The notes beneath the pieces were generated by a model. It made no database searches. It was not told the DNA's origin and was given only the letters and a program-made list of their open reading frames with translations. Positions 1-9,054 of a DNA stretch of 64,000 nt are shown piece after piece. Position 1 is the stretch's first letter; each line of letters starts with the position of its first letter. Source of the stretch: Planctomycetota bacterium. Its GTDB lineage: Bacteria; Planctomycetota; UBA1135. Where the stretch lies: assembly GCA_018671175.1 (NCBI GenBank), contig JABHIE010000018.1, forward strand, positions 62,001-126,000. The letters are read 5' to 3'. Both the position numbers and the translations under genes were made by a program.

Positions 1-385
1 CATCTATTAAAACTTGAAAGGCGGCTCTTGCTTCAAGGTAGCGACCACTTTCTAGTAGCGATTTAGCCGATGCAAGAGGAGCCTCGCGAGATGCGGCAAC
101 GGCTTCAAGGCCCATCTTGGACCACTTGTATTCTTCGTCACGCTCTAGTGCCGAACGGAAACCCTCTTCGGCTTCATCGAGCTCACCCAAATACCAATGA
201 CACCAGCCCAGCATGTCGTGGATGGCGGCCACATCGGGGTACATCCGTGCATGCTTTTCAAATTGCTCGAGAGCAGAGTTGTAATCGCGCTGGCGAAATA
301 AATCCCAGGGGTCGCTTTCTGGGCTTTGCGCAGCAAGCGGCAAAGTTATGAATAAAGCGAATAATAAAATGAAATACTTCATCAT
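1..385 (-). CDS. Secreted TPR-repeat protein, C-terminus cut off by the window start
   Basis: Reverse-strand reading gives MMKYFILLFALFITLPLAAQSPESDPWDLFRQRDYNSALEQFEKHARMYPDVAAIHDMLGWCHWYLGELDEAEEGFRSALERDEEYKW..., open to the window edge. It has a signal peptide and TPR-like repeats. Its start overlaps the stop of the ATP-grasp gene. Confidence 0.75.
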   Translation of the reverse strand, partial: MMKYFILLFALFITLPLAAQSPESDPWDLFRQRDYNSALEQFEKHARMYPDVAAIHDMLGWCHWYLGELDEAEEGFRSALERDEEYKWSKMGLEAVAASREAPLASAKSLLESGRYLEARAAFQVLID

Positions 386-1452
386 TTTTGTAATTCTAAT
401 TTACCGTTCGCCAAGAGGTCGCCCAAGTCTGTCACGCGGCCTAATTTGGTGTGCGTGCTACGCAAAAACATCGTACCCGCTGTCGGGGACGCAATGGTTT
501 CTGGGAGGTCTTCGCCTAAACCCAAACGCACTAAAAGATCAGGTAGGTTTAAGCCCGTACCGGGGCACATTCCGATCCAGGCCGGGAATCGAGCGTTAAC
601 CTCGACGAGGTGATATCGGCCGCTGGAATGTTCGCGCATCATTTCTAATTCAAGTGGGCCTTCCCAGTCAAGCTCGGCCAAGAATTTAAGCCCCGCGGCC
701 TCGGCTTCTGGGTCATCAACAACCACTGCGCCGATTGCCTTGCCTGCTGCCGACAAAACGGTTTTGCGAATGGTAATCATCGCGAGCGGGTCGCCACCTG
801 GCCGAACGACGGCGCAAATGTCGTATTCTTCGCCAACGACCTCTTTTTGCGCCAAGACAGGGTAGCCCCATTGATCGACAATTCGCTTAGCAACGATTTC
901 GGCCTCTTCTTGAGATTTAACCCGATATGCATCTGCAAGTGAGCCTTTGAGCCAGCACGGGAAATCCCAGTCTTCTTGTTTCCAAAAAGTCTTAGGGTCA
1001 GTTACGACCTCGGTCGCGGGGCTATGCAAACCGCGCTCAGCAGCCCAATGGGGCAAGCGTTGTTTGTAGCGATTTTTCACCGACTCAGGAGACGGGATCA
1101 CCATCTCGATACCCATGTCAGAAAGCTCTTGCCGGTGCAAAGAGAACAAGGCCAACTCGCTATCTAGAGCAGGGATTAATAAATCGATCGGGCACTCTTT
1201 ATTAATTTCGCGCAATCGCTTCATTAATGTTGCCGCCGGGTCGCCAGGAAGTGGTGTTAAATAAACGGTATCAAATAAGTCATCGCGAAAATTGCCGGTT
1301 AAAGTTGGCTCGTAAGCAAGCCCAATGATTTTGATTGCATCGCCGCGTGCATCACGCAAAGCTTTTGCGATAGATAAACCCGGATATGGGTTTTCGCGGC
1401 CTTCCAGGCCTGTTACAGCAACAACTGGTTTTTTAGAGGTCGACGAGGCCAT
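382..1452 (-). CDS. ATP-grasp domain protein (CarB/PylC-like fold)
   Basis: 356 aa. ATP-grasp-like features include YPVLAQKEVVGEEYDICAVV and LELEMMREHSSGRYHLVEVNARFPAW (ExN metal-binding motif). Confidence 0.8.
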   Translation of the reverse strand: MASSTSKKPVVAVTGLEGRENPYPGLSIAKALRDARGDAIKIIGLAYEPTLTGNFRDDLFDTVYLTPLPGDPAATLMKRLREINKECPIDLLIPALDSELALFSLHRQELSDMGIEMVIPSPESVKNRYKQRLPHWAAERGLHSPATEVVTDPKTFWKQEDWDFPCWLKGSLADAYRVKSQEEAEIVAKRIVDQWGYPVLAQKEVVGEEYDICAVVRPGGDPLAMITIRKTVLSAAGKAIGAVVVDDPEAEAAGLKFLAELDWEGPLELEMMREHSSGRYHLVEVNARFPAWIGMCPGTGLNLPDLLVRLGLGEDLPETIASPTAGTMFLRSTHTKLGRVTDLGDLLANGKLELQK

Positions 1453-1687
1453 GATCTTGGAGTATGTTCAAAAAGGCATCGACATCTGTGCGGGCAGATA
1501 AAGGGAAAATATCGAACTCAGCAACGACTGCTTCTATCAAAGCTGCCCGACCATCACCGGCCTCGATGCGCGTCAACAAAAAGGCGGCTGTGTCGTTGAG
1601 GCCATGCACATTGCCGCTGCGAGGGTCAAACAAATAGCCGGGCGCATCGCCTTCGCGGCGCCACTGAAGGTTGGATCGAAGTTTCAT
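1433..1687 (-). CDS. PqqD-like / RiPP-recognition-element-like small protein
   Basis: Internal ATG at 1687 gives MKLRSNLQWRREGDAPGYLFDPRSGNVHGLNDTAAFLLTRIEAGDGRAALIEAVVAEFDIFPLSARTDVDAFLNILQDHGLVDL, matching the PqqD pattern (x-LN-x-tAa-l...G...dv..fl..L...Glv). ATGA overlap with the upstream TPR gene. Confidence 0.82.
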   Translation of the reverse strand: MKLRSNLQWRREGDAPGYLFDPRSGNVHGLNDTAAFLLTRIEAGDGRAALIEAVVAEFDIFPLSARTDVDAFLNILQDHGLVDL

Positions 1688-3345
1688 GATGGGAGGTAGG
1701 AAGAAGCCGCCGTTTTCCATTTATGCGACAAGCGCAAGTCGCCGAGTTTTTCGGCGACTTGCGCGCCCAGTAAGAACCACGGAGAGGGCGTTAGGTTCCC
1801 TTTAATCTGAGATTGAATGAGCTCAAGTGTTGTTTCTAAATCGCCGAGACTTTGCGCTTGAATCGCGCGCACCCAAACGGCCTGAGCTGATTCATGTTGG
1901 CAATCAAAAGTGTGCTCTGAGCCACCACAGTGCTCACTGGCCAAATCATGCGCCAAGCCACCGAGCAGGTGATTTTCGAGGGCGTCCAAAACGCCTTTTT
2001 GCCCAGCTTGGGCGAGCCCTGCTAGCTCAGTTTGGGCGGTATTCGAGTGATCGGCTGAGCTCAACAGGGCTGTATACAACTCAAAAGCCTTGTCCTCAGA
2101 CCCCGTTTCCGCCCATAGGCGACCCATATCCAAGCGCAAGCCATCATGAGCACTATGCTTCATCGCAAGCTCCATGTGACCAAAAGCCGCTTCGTAATGC
2201 CCCTGCGCCTGAGCTGCAAGTGCTTTCAATTGGCGGGGCGTATGCCCCGTCTGGAGTAGCAAATCAAGTTCACTCGACTCAAGCCGCGACAAAGCGCTTT
2301 CGACTTCTCTTGGACGGCCATCCTGCAAAAAAGCAAAGGCGCGACCGCCCGCCCACTGCACGCGTGGCACTTTGCCGAAGGAGGCATCTAAAACTTCGAG
2401 CGCCGCTTTTGCTTGATTTGCCTTGAGCAAACTCATCGCAAAAGGCAGCAGCATTTCATTCCAGAGCGGGTCAGCCAAAAACCAGCGCAGGGTTTGCGAT
2501 CGAGTGGCGTGATCTGGCTCGAGCTCAAAGGCCTCGCGATAGGCCGCAAATGAGTCTTTGATGCGCCCCAAATTTGCGCAAGCCCACGCCAAGCCCCAGC
2601 AGGCGTCCCCCGACAACATGTTGATCTTGCGAGAGGCTTCGAAATGTTCGTGTGCCGATTCCCATTGGGCTTGCGAGCAGGCCACCCATCCGCGAAAAGC
2701 GCGCGCGTCATACAACTTTGGGTTTATGCGAAGGGCTTCCATGAGAGAGGCCTCGGCTGCGGCATGCTCTTGCATGCGAAAGAGGCACATCCCGAGCCCT
2801 TTGTGCGCGCTGGCTTTTTCGGGCGCCTCTCCTAATGCGTGGCGGAAATGTTCCGCGCCTTTTTCATAGGAGCCCGCTGCAAAAGAACTCAATTCCCAAG
2901 CACACCAACCCAGCGCCTCGTGTATTTCACCACGAAAAACCGCAGGCACGCGCTCGGGGATGAGCAGCAAGGCGGCTTCAAAAAGCTGGGCGGCCGACTC
3001 AAAACGGCCGGCGTGAAAGAGTTTCCAGCCTTGCATGACGGGTTGATACTGCCAGGCTCGAATCGCTAACAAAGCTTTTTCCGCACCTATATGGCGCGAA
3101 TCACAAGCAAGCGCGTGCATCAGCCAGCCTTCCTCTTCTGTCTTGTCTTCTCGCTGCTTCGCTAGGCGAGCCATCAAAAACCCAGCCTCGGCCCATTCTG
3201 GCGCGCGTTGGATGGCCTGATTTAACAAGGATTCAGCACCGTCATAATCGTGAGCGAGTAAACACTTCTCTGCCCGCTCAAGCAAAACAGCTGGCTTCCA
3301 TAAATGGAAGCGTGCAAAAAAGCGAAACAAAGTTTGGGGGGCCAC
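1684..3345 (-). CDS. Large TPR-repeat protein
   Basis: 553 aa with many TPR-like helical repeats (AGRFESAAQLFEAALLLIPE, YEKGAEHFRHALGEAPEKASAHKGLGMCLF...). Confidence 0.8.
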   Translation of the reverse strand: MAPQTLFRFFARFHLWKPAVLLERAEKCLLAHDYDGAESLLNQAIQRAPEWAEAGFLMARLAKQREDKTEEEGWLMHALACDSRHIGAEKALLAIRAWQYQPVMQGWKLFHAGRFESAAQLFEAALLLIPERVPAVFRGEIHEALGWCAWELSSFAAGSYEKGAEHFRHALGEAPEKASAHKGLGMCLFRMQEHAAAEASLMEALRINPKLYDARAFRGWVACSQAQWESAHEHFEASRKINMLSGDACWGLAWACANLGRIKDSFAAYREAFELEPDHATRSQTLRWFLADPLWNEMLLPFAMSLLKANQAKAALEVLDASFGKVPRVQWAGGRAFAFLQDGRPREVESALSRLESSELDLLLQTGHTPRQLKALAAQAQGHYEAAFGHMELAMKHSAHDGLRLDMGRLWAETGSEDKAFELYTALLSSADHSNTAQTELAGLAQAGQKGVLDALENHLLGGLAHDLASEHCGGSEHTFDCQHESAQAVWVRAIQAQSLGDLETTLELIQSQIKGNLTPSPWFLLGAQVAEKLGDLRLSHKWKTAASSYLPS

Positions 3346-3579: not shown

Positions 3580-4074
3580 ATGAAATTCTTCTTCTCACTA
3601 GTCCTTACTTTCCTCGTCTTGACGAGCCCCGCCTGCTTTGAGTTGCCAAGCTTCGATTCGCTCATTGATGACGGCGACCATACCACTTACAGCGACTTTG
3701 ACTTAATCGGAACATGGGGTGTCACGGTTAGCACTATTGGCTATGAGTACCCAAGCCACTGGGTTTTAGAGTTCGACATCATTGACGGGTCTGTTGCCTT
3801 GACGGCTCTTTATGACGAAACTGGCTCTGATTGGATTGAATCTGGCTCACAGCCTAATTGGACCATTTCTGCAGCTGGTGAGCTAGATTTAACAATCGAC
3901 TCTAGCCTGTATGATGAATGGGCGAACCTAACATATACTCAAATCGATCATTTCACTGGTGAGATGGAGTCAAGCAAGCATTTCATAAATGGGACTCAAG
4001 TGACCCATCTCACCTTTGAAGCGAGTGGCGATGAATATTGGCTTTTGGGCAGCTTCGAAGCAGAGAAATATTAA
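3580..4074 (+). CDS. Secreted protein, possible lipoprotein, of unknown function
   Basis: N-terminal MKFFFSLVLTFLVLTSPACFE signal/lipobox-like sequence; 164 aa; no family recognised. Confidence 0.6.
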   Translation: MKFFFSLVLTFLVLTSPACFELPSFDSLIDDGDHTTYSDFDLIGTWGVTVSTIGYEYPSHWVLEFDIIDGSVALTALYDETGSDWIESGSQPNWTISAAGELDLTIDSSLYDEWANLTYTQIDHFTGEMESSKHFINGTQVTHLTFEASGDEYWLLGSFEAEKY

Positions 4075-4178
4075 TCTTGATCTCGTCTAGCGAGGCTCGC
4101 CACCTCTCAAACTAACGATCGCGGCAAATGGTGGCGGAAGAAACCCGGGTTTAGACTAACCTATTGGGGAAACCTGCC

Positions 4179-4757
4179 ATGAGACCCCTCTTCCTCTTAG
4201 CCCTTCCGCTGCTCTGCCTTTGCGCATCATGCAGTCAAACGATTGACCCTGGCGACATGACGCCGATTGGTTCGATTGATCAAATCCAGCTGGTCGACCA
4301 CGCGGGCGAGCCTTTCAGCGAAAATGATTTCGAGGGCTCTATCTGGGTTGTCGATTTTTTCTTCACGCGCTGCCCTTCGGTTTGCCCGCGGCTACAGCTT
4401 GAGATGAAAAAATTTGCCGAGCGATACGCGAATGAGCCACGAGTCCAATTCTTAAGTATCACGGTCGATACTGAATTCGATGAGCCAGAAGTGCTGGCTG
4501 CCTTTGCGGAAAAACTTGGCCTCCCACTCGACAACTGGCGGCTTACAACTGGCGACCCGCGAGCCATTCGCCAATTTTCGGAGCACACGCTAAAACTTGC
4601 GATGGGAACCGACATGGATGAAAACGGCGACATCGCCCATTCCACCAAGTTTGTTTTGATCGACGCCAAAGGCGATGTCCGCGGTTTTATTGATGGCCTA
4701 GAAGAGTCTGAGCACCCCCGCTTTGACGCCATGATTCAAACTCTGCTTGCGGAATGA
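4179..4757 (+). CDS. SCO1/SenC family copper chaperone lipoprotein
   Basis: FFFTRCPSVCPRLQLEM (CxxxC) plus MRPLFLLALPLLCLCASCSQ lipobox; ATG at 4179 preferred over TTG at 4164. Confidence 0.88.
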   Translation: MRPLFLLALPLLCLCASCSQTIDPGDMTPIGSIDQIQLVDHAGEPFSENDFEGSIWVVDFFFTRCPSVCPRLQLEMKKFAERYANEPRVQFLSITVDTEFDEPEVLAAFAEKLGLPLDNWRLTTGDPRAIRQFSEHTLKLAMGTDMDENGDIAHSTKFVLIDAKGDVRGFIDGLEESEHPRFDAMIQTLLAE

Positions 4758-5194
4758 ATTTACCTCTACTTAATGCATCGCTTAATGGCACGGCGGGCCT
4801 ACTTTTAATTGGCGGGTTCATTGCCATTCGCGCTGGCAAAGAAAAGTTGCACATCCGCTTGATGATGTTCGCATTATTAGCGAGCGCGGCCTTTTTGATT
4901 TCCTATGGCTTGCATCATTTAACGGGCGCCTTGACTGTCAAATACGCTGGCCCTGAATCTTGGAAGACCGCCTATCTTGTTTTGCTTTTGACGCATACGG
5001 TTTTGGCGGCGGTCGTGCCATTTTTGGCGATTCGAGTGGCCTTCTTGGGGATAAAAGGTCGGCGCGAGGCACACCGTAAACTGGCGCGAGTGACATTTCC
5101 GATTTGGATTTATGTTTCAATTACGGGTGTTTTGATTTACCTCGTTCTCTATGTCTGGACAAACTCCTGGGAGATTGCTCGTGCAGGCATCTGA
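4754..5194 (+). CDS. DUF420 family membrane protein (cytochrome oxidase assembly associated)
   Basis: 146 aa multi-TM; ...LISYGLHHLTG...AYLVLLLTHTVLAAVVPFLAIRVAFLGIKGRREAHRKLARVTFPIWIYVSITGVLIYLVLYVW; in an oxidase biogenesis cluster. Confidence 0.8.
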   Translation: MNLPLLNASLNGTAGLLLIGGFIAIRAGKEKLHIRLMMFALLASAAFLISYGLHHLTGALTVKYAGPESWKTAYLVLLLTHTVLAAVVPFLAIRVAFLGIKGRREAHRKLARVTFPIWIYVSITGVLIYLVLYVWTNSWEIARAGI

Positions 5195-6152
5195 TAAAAA
5201 GGGCATCCTTGCCGTTGTTGTTGTTTCGATTTTGGGCTTGGGTATTACTTTTACCGCCGGTGAATCGCTTTCGGATGCTGTGATTCATCCGATGCAATGG
5301 CTGCGTGGCCCTGGTTCAAATCTTGCTTTCGGAGCCGCAATAGATGACTCTTTTGGCACCTATGACTCGCCAAAGTTATTGGCCTCCTCCGTAGACCCCG
5401 CTGCCGCCCGACGACTCTGGATGCAAAAGTGCTCACAGTGCCACGGCGCAGATGGCCAAGCGAAGACGCCGACGGCCGACCTGCTCAATCCACGCCCCCG
5501 CGACTTTTCAGAGGGCGTTGTAAAATTTGTTTCGAGCCGTGCGACAACCGAGCACGCACCTCGCCCAAGCCAAGTCGATTTACGGCGCGTGATTCGCGAA
5601 GGCGCTCCGTTTACTTCCATGTCTGCCTTTGACGAGTTAAACGAAAATGAGCTTGATGCGATTGTGGCTTATACGCGATGGCTACTGATTCGTAATGCTT
5701 CTGGGCGCGCCATTCGTGGCGGCAAGATTGCCCACTACGCTAACGATATTGCACGCCTGCGAAAAATGGTGACGGCACAATTTGACGCCGCCGATTTGCC
5801 TGTCGTTGATTTGATTTCAAAAGGCCGCACCGGTGATGTTGTTCGCGGTAAAGACTTGTTTCAATCGACTCGGGCTGCGTGCTTTACTTGCCACGGCTCA
5901 AGTGGTGCCGGTGACGGTGCGGCGGCGACAGACGAAAACGGAAAAGCCCTTTTAATGGATATTTGGGGGCAACCTGCACCACCGCGTGATTTACGACTTG
6001 GGCAATTTCATGGCGGCTCGACAACGCGTGCTATTTTCTCGCGGATTCAAAACGGCATCCCCGGCACGCCGATGCCAGCGGCGACCGCGTTAACCGATAT
6101 TGAGATTCTCGATCTCACAGCCTATGTCTTGCAACTCAGAGGCAACCTATGA
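5151..6152 (+). CDS. Membrane-anchored dihaem cytochrome c
   Basis: Two CxxCH motifs (CSQCHGADGQ, CFTCHGSSGAGDG) after an N-terminal TM. Start uncertain; a GTG near 5181 is an alternative. Confidence 0.85.
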   Translation: MSGQTPGRLLVQASDKKGILAVVVVSILGLGITFTAGESLSDAVIHPMQWLRGPGSNLAFGAAIDDSFGTYDSPKLLASSVDPAAARRLWMQKCSQCHGADGQAKTPTADLLNPRPRDFSEGVVKFVSSRATTEHAPRPSQVDLRRVIREGAPFTSMSAFDELNENELDAIVAYTRWLLIRNASGRAIRGGKIAHYANDIARLRKMVTAQFDAADLPVVDLISKGRTGDVVRGKDLFQSTRAACFTCHGSSGAGDGAAATDENGKALLMDIWGQPAPPRDLRLGQFHGGSTTRAIFSRIQNGIPGTPMPAATALTDIEILDLTAYVLQLRGNL

Positions 6153-7078
6153 GCCAATACTCTCTCTCGCCTTGGCCGCAACGATGGGCCATCCTTTCGC
6201 TCATCGTCACGATTCTGCTAACGATTGGCATTGGTGGCGTTATCACTTCAACCGAAGTGGGCATGGCTTACCCCACTTGGCCCGACATCAACGGTGGCTC
6301 ACTTTTCGACTTTTTCTACGGAAGCCTGGCTGAGCAGTTTGGCATTGGGTCGACAATCGAACACACGCATCGGCAGGCAGGCACACTTTCTGGGCTGGCG
6401 ATTATGGCACTTGTTGCCGCTTGTTTCTTTAGCCGCGGCACAACATCGGCGCACAAAAAAATGTCGCTCATCGTTTTTGGCCTTGTTGTCGCGCAAGGTT
6501 TGCTTGGCGCGTTTCGTGTTTTGGCCAATAGCTATGGTGGCGCCATTATCCATGCCGTCGGCGCGCAACTTGTCATTGTTTCCATAGTCATCATCATCAA
6601 AATGACTGCTCGAAACCAAAGTTCTATCCCGAACAACTCTGCAATGAGCCGCCTGCAGCTCTGGAGTTTCATCGGCATCATTGTTTTATTTCTCAACCTC
6701 GTCACAGCTGCCGCGCTTCGACATAAAGAAGGCGCATTTTCAGGGCATCTCATTCTGGCAATTCTCGCGGCTGCGGTTTTAGGGTTTGTCGTGCGGCACG
6801 CTCTCATTCATTTTCGAGACATCCACGCCATCCGCCAGAGCGCGCGACGACTCCTCACTCTGCTAGGGCTGCAACTCGGGTTAGGGCTAGGCACTTGGTC
6901 TTATTTGCTGGGGCCGCTTCAAGGCACGATTCTAGAAGGGCAAAGCCGATTCTTGCTTGAGTCAAGCTTGGCAACGACGCACCTCTTATTTGGCGTCTTA
7001 GTGCTCGCGCAACTAACCGCTCTCTGGATGGACGCCCGTGCATCAAACCACTCAAACGCGGCCGCCAAAGAGCTTTAA
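6149..7078 (+). CDS. ctaA: Haem A synthase (COX15/CtaA)
   Basis: TSTEVGMAYPTWPDINGG..., EHTHRQAGTLSGL, second-half TTHLLFGVLVL; adjacent to ctaB. Confidence 0.9.
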   Translation: MSQYSLSPWPQRWAILSLIVTILLTIGIGGVITSTEVGMAYPTWPDINGGSLFDFFYGSLAEQFGIGSTIEHTHRQAGTLSGLAIMALVAACFFSRGTTSAHKKMSLIVFGLVVAQGLLGAFRVLANSYGGAIIHAVGAQLVIVSIVIIIKMTARNQSSIPNNSAMSRLQLWSFIGIIVLFLNLVTAAALRHKEGAFSGHLILAILAAAVLGFVVRHALIHFRDIHAIRQSARRLLTLLGLQLGLGLGTWSYLLGPLQGTILEGQSRFLLESSLATTHLLFGVLVLAQLTALWMDARASNHSNAAAKEL

Positions 7079-7081
7079 ATC

Positions 7082-7954
7082 ATGAAAGGCTCTTTAAGCG
7101 ACTGGGCGGTTCTATCGAAGGCGCGCCTACAGCTCATGTCGAGTGGCGCAGCCATTGCCTGTGCCTGGATGGCCGCGGATGGCCACCTCTCTTGGCCGAC
7201 TGCCTTACATTTATTCTTTGGGCTCACTTTAGCGAGCAATGCATCTGCTGCATTGAATCAAGTTTATGAAGCCGACGCTGATGCGCAGATGAATCGCACA
7301 AAAAACCGGCCCATCCCCGCAGGTCGAATTGATGCGCGCGATGCAAGCCGTTTTGCTTGGGTCTCTGGCGTTGTGGGTATTGCATGGCTAGGTTGGTTTT
7401 TGAACCCACTTACCGCATGGCTCGCCTTTGTTATGTTTGCTCTTTATGTATGGGTTTACACTCCACTCAAAAGAGTAACGACACTCAATACTTTAGTCGG
7501 TGCATTTCCTGGCGCACTGCCCTTGCTCGTTGGATGGGCCGCACCGGGCAATGGCCTATCGATGACTGCGGGCATTTTATTTGCCATCCTGTATTTGTGG
7601 CAACTCCCCCACTTTATGGCCATCGCCTGGATGTATCGCAAAGACTACGCTGACGGCGGAATGCGTATGCTTCCCGTTGACGACCCAAGTGGTGGCTCAA
7701 CGGCGCGGCAAGCGATTCAATATGCAATTGCACTTGTCCCCGTAAGTTTAGTGCCGACAGTTGTTGGCCTTGCTGGGTTAGTTTATTTTTATACGGCCCT
7801 GACCTTGTCGATTTTGTTTTTAGCCTTTGTGCTGCGCTTTGCACTGCAACGCACAGACAAGCGCGCACGCATTGTGCTTTGGGCTAGCTTGGTTTATTTA
7901 CCGCTCGTGCTCACCATGCTTGGCCTCGATTGGCAAGGCTTGCCTCAAAGCTAA
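7082..7954 (+). CDS. ctaB: Protohaem IX farnesyltransferase (COX10/CtaB)
   Basis: NQVYEADADAQMNRTKNRPIPAGRI and YTPLKRVTTLNTLVGAFPGALPLLVGWAA signatures of UbiA-type CtaB. Confidence 0.95.
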   Translation: MKGSLSDWAVLSKARLQLMSSGAAIACAWMAADGHLSWPTALHLFFGLTLASNASAALNQVYEADADAQMNRTKNRPIPAGRIDARDASRFAWVSGVVGIAWLGWFLNPLTAWLAFVMFALYVWVYTPLKRVTTLNTLVGAFPGALPLLVGWAAPGNGLSMTAGILFAILYLWQLPHFMAIAWMYRKDYADGGMRMLPVDDPSGGSTARQAIQYAIALVPVSLVPTVVGLAGLVYFYTALTLSILFLAFVLRFALQRTDKRARIVLWASLVYLPLVLTMLGLDWQGLPQS

Positions 7955-7986
7955 AGTCATTACGCTAGACCAGCGGGCTGGCTGAA

Positions 7987-8199
7987 TTAAAGCAAGAAAC
8001 CTTCGCTGTCATTCGATTGCAGCAAAACGAGTACAAGCCGACTCAATAGAGAAAGGGCGAGCGCAATCAGGGCCCAGTTCCACATTGCGCGCTGAGCGAT
8101 TGGGTCGCGACCGTTGGTTTTCAAAAACAGCCCCCGAGCGACACAGCACAAAAAGGCGAAGATGCTGATAAATGCTACAAATGAGAGGGGCAGAATCAT
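7987..8199 (-). CDS. Small two-TM membrane protein
   Basis: 70 aa hydrophobic ORF overlapping by 4 nt the upstream subunit III-like gene. Confidence 0.55.
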   Translation of the reverse strand: MILPLSFVAFISIFAFLCCVARGLFLKTNGRDPIAQRAMWNWALIALALSLLSRLVLVLLQSNDSEGFLL

Positions 8200-8996
8200 G
8201 AACTTACCATTGGGATAGCGGTGCGTAAAGCTTCAGCAACGGCGCTTCGAATCGAAAATGCTACGCCATGCCCAGCGATGATCAACACAGTTGAGAGGAA
8301 TGCTCGCAAAAGCCACAGATTGCGACGATCTCCTGATGATTTCATTGCTGCACCAAGAGCCATCAATAAAAGTGGCCCGCCCAATCGACCGACCCACAAA
8401 AAGAAAATGGCTCCTCCTTCGGCGTGGTCTGCACTTGCCAGCATGCTGCCAAACAAAATCACCCAAGTAAACAACAAGAAGTGCCAATACTTGGCCGCAT
8501 TACGCAAGCCGGGTGCGGTTCCGTGATCAAACGCACCCGCGCGATGGCGGCGAGTGACGACGATTTGATAAACCACGCCAGCTATAACATGCAGCGCATG
8601 CAAACCTGTCAGCGTATAAAAAGTAAAGGCATACAAATTTGCGGCATTCGGAGGTAAATCTGCAGCCGTCATTTCAGCCCAATTCCAATACTGCACCGCT
8701 AAAAATACAACTGACAAAACAAGCGCACTCACACTCAACAGGCGAGACAAAGCACTTGCAGACCGCTTGCGCCAAGCCACCTCTGCAACAGCGCTCAAAC
8801 AAACCAAGACTGCGCCCGCACCCCACATCCCGAATGGCATCGCTGGTAAACCTGAACCCCACTCAGGGTTTTTACCTCGGACAATCCAATAAGCCACCAA
8901 CAGTGCACCGAAAAGCATGCCGAGTGTGGCCATTAAAAAGGACATCCCCAAGGCGTTTGTGCCCTGGGGAAGTGTTTGTTGGCGCGAAGTATTCAC
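8196..8996 (-). CDS. Cytochrome c oxidase subunit III-like protein (paralogue 2)
   Basis: FYTLTGLHALHVIAGVVYQIVV and KYWHFLLFTWVILFG match subunit III; 266 aa with extra C-terminal TM segments. Confidence 0.82.
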   Translation of the reverse strand: MNTSRQQTLPQGTNALGMSFLMATLGMLFGALLVAYWIVRGKNPEWGSGLPAMPFGMWGAGAVLVCLSAVAEVAWRKRSASALSRLLSVSALVLSVVFLAVQYWNWAEMTAADLPPNAANLYAFTFYTLTGLHALHVIAGVVYQIVVTRRHRAGAFDHGTAPGLRNAAKYWHFLLFTWVILFGSMLASADHAEGGAIFFLWVGRLGGPLLLMALGAAMKSSGDRRNLWLLRAFLSTVLIIAGHGVAFSIRSAVAEALRTAIPMVSS

Positions 8997-9054
8997 GCCT
9001 CGATTTTAACGGCTAGCAGCCATCGCGTTTGAGCGCGTGGCGCAAGACGCTTGA

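Follow-up and report, generated by a model that had tools for sequence, protein, structure and literature searches.

We describe an operon that runs across one end of a 64,000-nucleotide stretch of DNA (the whole stretch is referred to below as the window; G000:C27:62001-126000) within a 2.39-Mb metagenome-assembled genome of Planctomycetota that is 89% complete. The operon includes a small stand-alone PqqD-like protein that belongs, by sequence and predicted fold, to the recognition elements (RREs) of ribosomally synthesized and post-translationally modified peptide (RiPP) pathways. Judging from motif conservation, this RRE very probably grips the N-terminal tail of a pyridoxal phosphate (PLP)-dependent decarboxylase (DEC) encoded in the same operon and would thus dock an enzyme instead of a precursor peptide. 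The operon as a whole is probably an RRE-scaffolded system for the assembly and export of a small molecule. We consider it an even chance that it represents a type of RRE-dependent pathway not described before and spread by horizontal transfer. In such a pathway a metabolic enzyme would carry the 'leader' as part of its own chain, the RRE would bring this enzyme together with an ATP-grasp ligase so that an intermediate is worked on inside the complex, and a channel-hydrolase would release a small product and export it by an outer-membrane route of its own.

Organization of the operon

The genes and the proposed recognition motif are listed below. Those beyond the window start are given in the coordinates of locus L002 (window position + 17001).

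1684..3345, minus strand: TPR1, a tetratricopeptide repeat (TPR) protein of 553 residues with a GTG start, TPR matches in Pfam and no signal peptide; an accessory protein found in Sir2-type operons
1433..1687, minus strand: PqqD-like stand-alone RRE of 84 residues, in which N31 and D68 correspond to N33 and D70 of LppB
382..1452, minus strand: GRASP1, an ATP-grasp ligase of 356 residues with an intact set of catalytic residues, similar to carbamoyl phosphate synthase and PRK12767
1..385, minus strand (start of the gene only; whole gene L002:14954-17386): SECTPR, a secreted TPR protein of 810 residues that leaves the window
L002:13866-14957, minus strand: GRASP2, a degenerate ATP-grasp protein (pseudo-ATP-grasp) just beyond the window start
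L002:12481-13869, minus strand: DEC, a LysA/FslC-like PLP decarboxylase, outside the window
L002:13834-13851, minus strand: putative RRE-recognition motif Y7-S-S-P10-E-L12 in the N-terminal tail of DEC
L002:10641-12476, minus strand: UT-Sir2, a urea channel (UT) fused to a Sir2 deacylase, outside the window

An initial annotation, made from the window alone, had described four tightly packed minus-strand genes, and all of their positions and overlaps were reproduced: TPR1 and the PqqD gene overlap at ATGA, the PqqD gene and GRASP1 by 20 nucleotides, and GRASP1 and SECTPR at ATGATG. It had also pointed to the sequence beyond position 1 as worth inspecting. The same operon does continue there, with ATGA overlaps between SECTPR and GRASP2 and between GRASP2 and DEC, and with UT-Sir2 beginning 4 nucleotides after DEC. 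The cassette in the window is therefore four of the seven genes of a larger, translationally coupled operon. Two core components, DEC and the urea-channel-hydrolase, fall outside the window and so were missing from that annotation. SECTPR carries a Sec-like signal (MMKYFILLFALFITLPLAAQS).

A putative recognition motif on the decarboxylase tail

DEC has an N-terminal extension that precedes the part shared with LysA. The consensus of this tail is [K/R]-x-x-[Y/W]-x-x-P-x-[I/L]...G-x-x-N-K-F-G. For comparison, the recognition sequence of lasso-type RREs is [Y/W]xxPx[L/V/I/F/A] (PMC13381572) and that of the StsA/StsC pair is KPxWxxP (PMC12710340). The motif [YW]xxPx[ILVM] is present in 87 of 89 distinct DEC tails, compared with 2.5 expected by shuffling. 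A second set, from further Pseudomonadota genomes, gave 19 of 20 new DEC tails with the motif, the remaining one having Phe at the last position. None of 18 LysA paralogues, nearly all from the same genomes as DEC, contains it, and in the other operon proteins it occurs at background level (0-5% of terminal 60-residue stretches, either N or C).

The two tails without the motif are those of L050 and L098. The genome of L050 (G167) contains no PqqD gene at all. The operon of L098, from Legionella moravica, has a DEC frame broken by a stop, and the first fragment does hold the motif. In another genome (G314) the motif is present with no PqqD gene beside GRASP1, and three PqqD genes are found elsewhere in the genome.

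The PqqD protein as a lasso-type RRE

The 84-residue protein matches Pfam PqqD with E=4e-14, exceeding the gathering score. Its AlphaFold2 model (predicted local distance difference test (pLDDT) 94) has strands at residues 8-10, 17-21 and 26-30 followed by helices at 32-42, 47-58 and 62-78 (bbb-aaa order), and among solved structures it comes closest to those of the lasso RREs TbiB1 and TfuB1 with their leader peptides (template modelling (TM) scores 0.81-0.90, with 0.90 for TbiB1). By sequence and predicted fold it is a lasso-type RRE, and the PqqD/RRE winged helix-turn-helix proposed initially thus passes the fold check.

N31 and D68 were placed by alignment to PDB 9x8z. The LppB residues N33 and D70 form bonds with the leader at its Pro kink and at its Tyr; N33A nearly abolished binding and D70A reduced it. 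N31 is present in 82 of 85 RREs. D68 is found in 52 of 53 loci with a Tyr-type motif and in 21 of 32 of the Trp type, which is what one would expect of an Asp that serves the hydroxyl of Tyr. The initial annotation had viewed the PqqD protein as an adaptor that selects a substrate. The likeliest such substrate is the leader-like tail of DEC itself.

The fold, the [Y/W]xxPx[hydrophobic] motif and the contacting Asn and Asp are shared with known RRE-leader pairs, namely TbiB1/TbiA, TfuB1 (= FusB1)/FusA, LppB/LppA and StsC/StsA. In those systems the motif belongs to a precursor peptide, whereas here it lies in the N-terminal tail of a 450-residue PLP enzyme. The recurrent neighbours of the operon include neither a lasso cyclase nor a leader peptidase family. 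In Zetaproteobacteria and relatives (L071:9213-10004 and L113:9168-9989) the PqqD/RRE forms the C-terminus of a longer protein. The N-terminus of the L071 protein weakly matches TetR_N, and this would be an RRE-regulator fusion.

Conservation and spread

Using GRASP1 as sole bait, strong matches (>200 bits) were found in 18 of 294 sampled Planctomycetota genomes (6%) and 36 of 399 sampled Pseudomonadota genomes (9%). A single-sequence search of genome contigs gave no match, but a profile search of the contigs identified at least 583 GRASP1 relatives, and the 80 best of these were analysed. Although these loci were picked by the ATP-grasp motif alone, PqqD lies upstream of GRASP1 in 77 of the 80. 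The other three are at a contig end (L131), in a genome without PqqD (L069) and in a cyanobacterium (L133). DEC and the channel come after GRASP1 wherever the contig extends, with L133 as sole exception: here an orphan GRASP1 of an Oscillatoriales cyanobacterium (L133:9959-11038) occurs without PqqD, DEC or channel. The pattern recurs in both Planctomycetota and Pseudomonadota, and the linkage of PqqD and ATP-grasp, which the initial annotation had expected to be conserved, is indeed maintained across phyla. Unsupervised clustering of neighbours returned the same core and two further families, a TPR protein at 55 loci and a beta-barrel-like one at 18. As judged from these comparisons, the fixed core is PqqD, ATP-grasp, DEC and a urea channel, usually fused to an M23 or a Sir2 domain.

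The core recurs in at least eight diderm phyla. Identified hosts belong to the Planctomycetota, Pseudomonadota, Myxococcota, Cloacimonadota, Bacteroidota, Fidelibacterota, Cyanobacteriota, Armatimonadota and Thermodesulfobacteriota, all of which are diderm, and one of them, Mariprofundus sp. EBB-1, is cultivated. The GRASP1 tree divides into a Sir2 clade (14 rows), which is the type found in the window, and an M23 clade (66 rows), with a single change between them (Shimodaira-Hasegawa approximate likelihood ratio test (SH-aLRT) 95). It is the Sir2-type loci that hold the extra TPR genes. Phyla are intermingled in the M23 clade, which suggests that the M23-type operon has spread by horizontal transfer. 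A search for plasmid carriage with one Mariprofundus ATP-grasp as query gave no match.

Two further features of the surroundings can be recorded. A domain of approximately 140 residues (AW[LI]G[IL]SLYP...C..C..C), in one or three copies and with no Pfam match, is encoded ahead of the core in a number of phyla (L090:9306-9734, L070:9246-9671, L055, L056, L078 and L114) and is secreted in L090 and L070. In the window itself, the region upstream of the operon (3580-9000) carries a small putative lipoprotein and a region that by eye looks haem/cytochrome-oxidase-like (SCO1-, CtaA- and CtaB-like).

The ATP-grasp proteins and the decarboxylase

GRASP1 matches NCBIfam PRK12767 (E=7e-19; 67.9 bits against an equivalog cut-off of 218). 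K169, K230, K238, E268, E270, E284, N286 and R288 are kept throughout. It shares the fold family and the ATP-grasp residues of the PRK12767 'carbamoyl phosphate synthase-like' proteins (PDB 2pn1) but forms a separate, tightly linked subfamily. GRASP2-type paralogues could be compared in 11 of 14 Sir2-type loci and have lost the ATP/Mg ligands; in the GRASP2 encoded next to the window, E284, N286 and R288 are replaced by D, R and G. From these substitutions, GRASP2 is a pseudo-ATP-grasp, and it is restricted to the Sir2-type clade.

The nearest solved relative of DEC is the N-citrylornithine decarboxylase FigC (PDB 7kh2, 339 bits), followed by diaminopimelate (DAP) decarboxylases, D-ornithine/lysine decarboxylase and BtrK. 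The PLP lysine, GGG, [EP]GR and the catalytic Cys are invariant or nearly so in 19 DEC sequences, and these residues identify DEC as a PLP decarboxylase of the alanine racemase (AR) fold. In one planctomycete (L052:5123-6472) the PLP lysine has been lost (SAVANPL for S.KTNYL) in an operon that otherwise looks complete.

The DEC loop, CM[NQ]xD, is like that of FigC, while that of LysA is CE[ST]xD. In FigC, Met355 occupies the place of the acid to which a free side-chain amine would bind. DEC has Ile (CM[NQ]ID) at the position of His357, the residue by which FigC contacts citrate, and a citrate moiety in the DEC substrate is therefore unlikely. We infer from these residues an amide-linked or otherwise enlarged substrate other than a citrate conjugate. 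Substrates held on a tether are usual for this fold: BtrK acts on carrier-bound glutamate, and the substrate of MccE is a peptidyl-nucleotide. FigC/FslC, BtrK (with its carrier BtrI) and MccE all decarboxylate conjugated or carrier-bound amino acids. In contrast to the FigC/FslC and BtrK systems, the core of the present operon includes neither a synthetase of the non-ribosomal-peptide-synthetase-independent siderophore (NIS) type nor an acyl carrier, and the tail motif is particular to the DEC family.

The channel-hydrolase and the envelope proteins

Over its full length the UT domain aligns with dvUT (3k3f, 195 bits) and with mammalian urea transporters and is, by homology, a member of the urea transporter family. 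Unlike dvUT, UT-A and UT-B, the channel has a C-terminal M23 or Sir2 fusion and sits in an operon. In the M23 domains the His/Asp/His/HxH set is invariant (H372, D381, H456, H489 and H491). In the Sir2 domains the NAD, catalytic His and Cys4 residues are invariant, and in the AlphaFold2 model of UT-Sir2 (pLDDT 85) the Sir2 part matches solved sirtuins. No hydrophobic segment is predicted between UT and M23. Together with the homology to urea transporters, this implies that the fused M23 domain should be cytosolic. The Sir2 domain must be cytosolic because it is NAD-dependent.

Proteins encoded downstream often have a signal peptide together with an aromatic, barrel-like C-terminus, and some start with TPRs (L110, L101 and L116). 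Envelope export machines have this layout, and transport may be outwards. The TPR proteins are the most variable part of the operon and the core also occurs without them. They are probably envelope-export accessories, and the suggestion of the initial annotation that they serve as scaffold or target found no support. Because the C-terminus of the TPR proteins is not conserved, it was rejected as a carrier or a site of modification.

A proposed pathway and its alternatives

In the scheme that we propose, the RRE would grip the tail of DEC and hold it in a complex with the ATP-grasp ligase. The overlap of the genes and the precedent of other RREs make such a complex of RRE, DEC and GRASP1 rather likely. 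The ligase could then form an amide-linked conjugate of an amino acid with its alpha-amino and alpha-carboxyl groups left free, a step which we hold to be somewhat less than an even prospect. Docked DEC might strip that carboxylate, as FslC/FigC does on N-citrylornithine and BtrK on carrier-bound glutamate; here the comparison leaves the balance about level. Finally, and more tentatively, the hydrolase domain at the cytosolic face of the channel may cut an amide, and the product may cross the inner membrane through the channel and the outer membrane through the barrel/TPR proteins, putatively in the outward direction. The chemistry overall (ligation, decarboxylation, cleavage and channel passage) is read from protein families and ranges from tentative to evenly poised.

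Several points weigh against this scheme. The association between Y/W and D68 runs in the predicted direction and gives a Fisher p of 5e-5 that is not corrected for phylogeny, and there are only three independent pairs, which cannot reach significance in a sign test. Covariation between Y/W and all PqqD columns is not above the background of GRASP1 columns. For the cleavage step, the cytosolic placement of M23 is a prediction from homology to urea transporters and from the lack of a predicted helix between the domains. Moreover, Sir2 (an NAD-dependent deacylase) and M23 (a metallopeptidase) cut different amides, and a single shared reaction is a guess.

Other explanations have been considered. 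The RRE might present leader-tagged DEC to the ATP-grasp enzyme so that DEC itself is tagged or activated. RiPP systems do modify the chain that bears the leader, the PqqD and ATP-grasp genes overlap, and a further block of the DEC tail, G..NK[F]G, is conserved. Against this, the C-terminus of DEC is not conserved, Arg takes the place of the conserved tail Lys in the majority of Sir2-type systems (which also ruled out this Lys as a swinging arm or acceptor), and the two types share no acceptor residue. We regard such protein modification as unlikely. Slightly less likely again is a classical RiPP pathway in which PqqD recruits an unlinked precursor for modification by ATP-grasp and DEC, the DEC tail being a competing or regulatory mimic. 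An RRE is present, and both ATP-grasp enzymes and AR-fold decarboxylases (MccE) are known from peptide natural-product pathways. Yet within the operon the recognition motif is found on DEC only, GRASP1 matches no NCBIfam graspetide model, and there is no conserved short precursor-like open reading frame (ORF) beside the operon, in agreement with the initial annotation, in a search whose scope was linked precursors.

The family names (M23, DAP-decarboxylase-like and D-Ala-ligase-like) and the uniformly diderm hosts would fit the recycling or remodelling of muropeptides. We consider this improbable: an entire clade has NAD-dependent Sir2 in place of M23, M23 is itself predicted at the cytosolic face, DEC does not have the CE[ST] loop of LysA, and the pairing of RRE and tail would be left unexplained. 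Least probable is that DEC is simply the LysA of lysine biosynthesis and the operon part of amino-acid or urea metabolism. The genome of the window (G000) does offer something in its favour, since it has no LysA above the TIGR01048 (LysA) cut-off and DEC is its sole TIGR01048-like protein. Candidate explanations for this gap are lysine auxotrophy, a missing contig or double duty by DEC. But DEC falls below the cut-off, its loop and tail differ, and 19 of 29 operon genomes hold a separate match above the cut-off, so that in most hosts DEC is not the LysA of the cell.

Relation to known systems

The operon lacks at least one defining feature of each of the systems to which it might be assigned (RiPP cluster, graspetide, HPr-rel-A, GAK, LysA and FslC). 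LysA identity was rejected from the TIGR01048 score and the absence of the CE[ST]xD loop, FslC/FigC identity from the NCBIfam FslC score (221, cut-off 500) and the Ile at the position of His357. In the NCBIfam scan of GRASP1 the matches were to PRK12767-type models; graspetide membership was discarded since no graspetide model matched and no precursor is nearby, and GAK membership since no GAK-type (ATP-grasp/amphi-Trp/kinase) ATP-grasp was found at E<=0.1. The PqqD protein scores 41 against TIGR04353 'HPr-rel-A system PqqD' (cut-off 35), so a named model is indeed matched, but the defining HprK-rel-A kinase (TIGR04352) is above its cut-off in none of 14 operon genomes. The match is thus a label, not an identity. 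As the initial annotation had observed for the window, the operon includes neither a radical SAM protein nor this kinase.

The combination corresponds to none of the systems named in Pfam, NCBIfam or PDB, and no open-access paper was found that combines these parts, in a literature coverage that is partial and in which labels may differ. The operon is apparently undescribed. Each part is assigned by its sequence to a known family; what appears new is how they are combined and that a metabolic enzyme bears a built-in RRE recognition sequence.

This has practical consequences. Genome mining for peptide natural products uses RRE domains as guides and takes them to be binders of precursors. In the present case a large stand-alone RRE family very probably has an enzyme as its ligand, and listing its members as orphan RiPP loci or as 'HPr-rel-A PqqD' would mislead. 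With a prevalence of 6-9% that includes the cultivated Mariprofundus sp. EBB-1, the metabolite and the transport route are directly testable, and the pair of tail and RRE is a prediction that can be probed by point mutation. If it is true, RREs would be general docking adaptors and not just binders of RiPP precursors.

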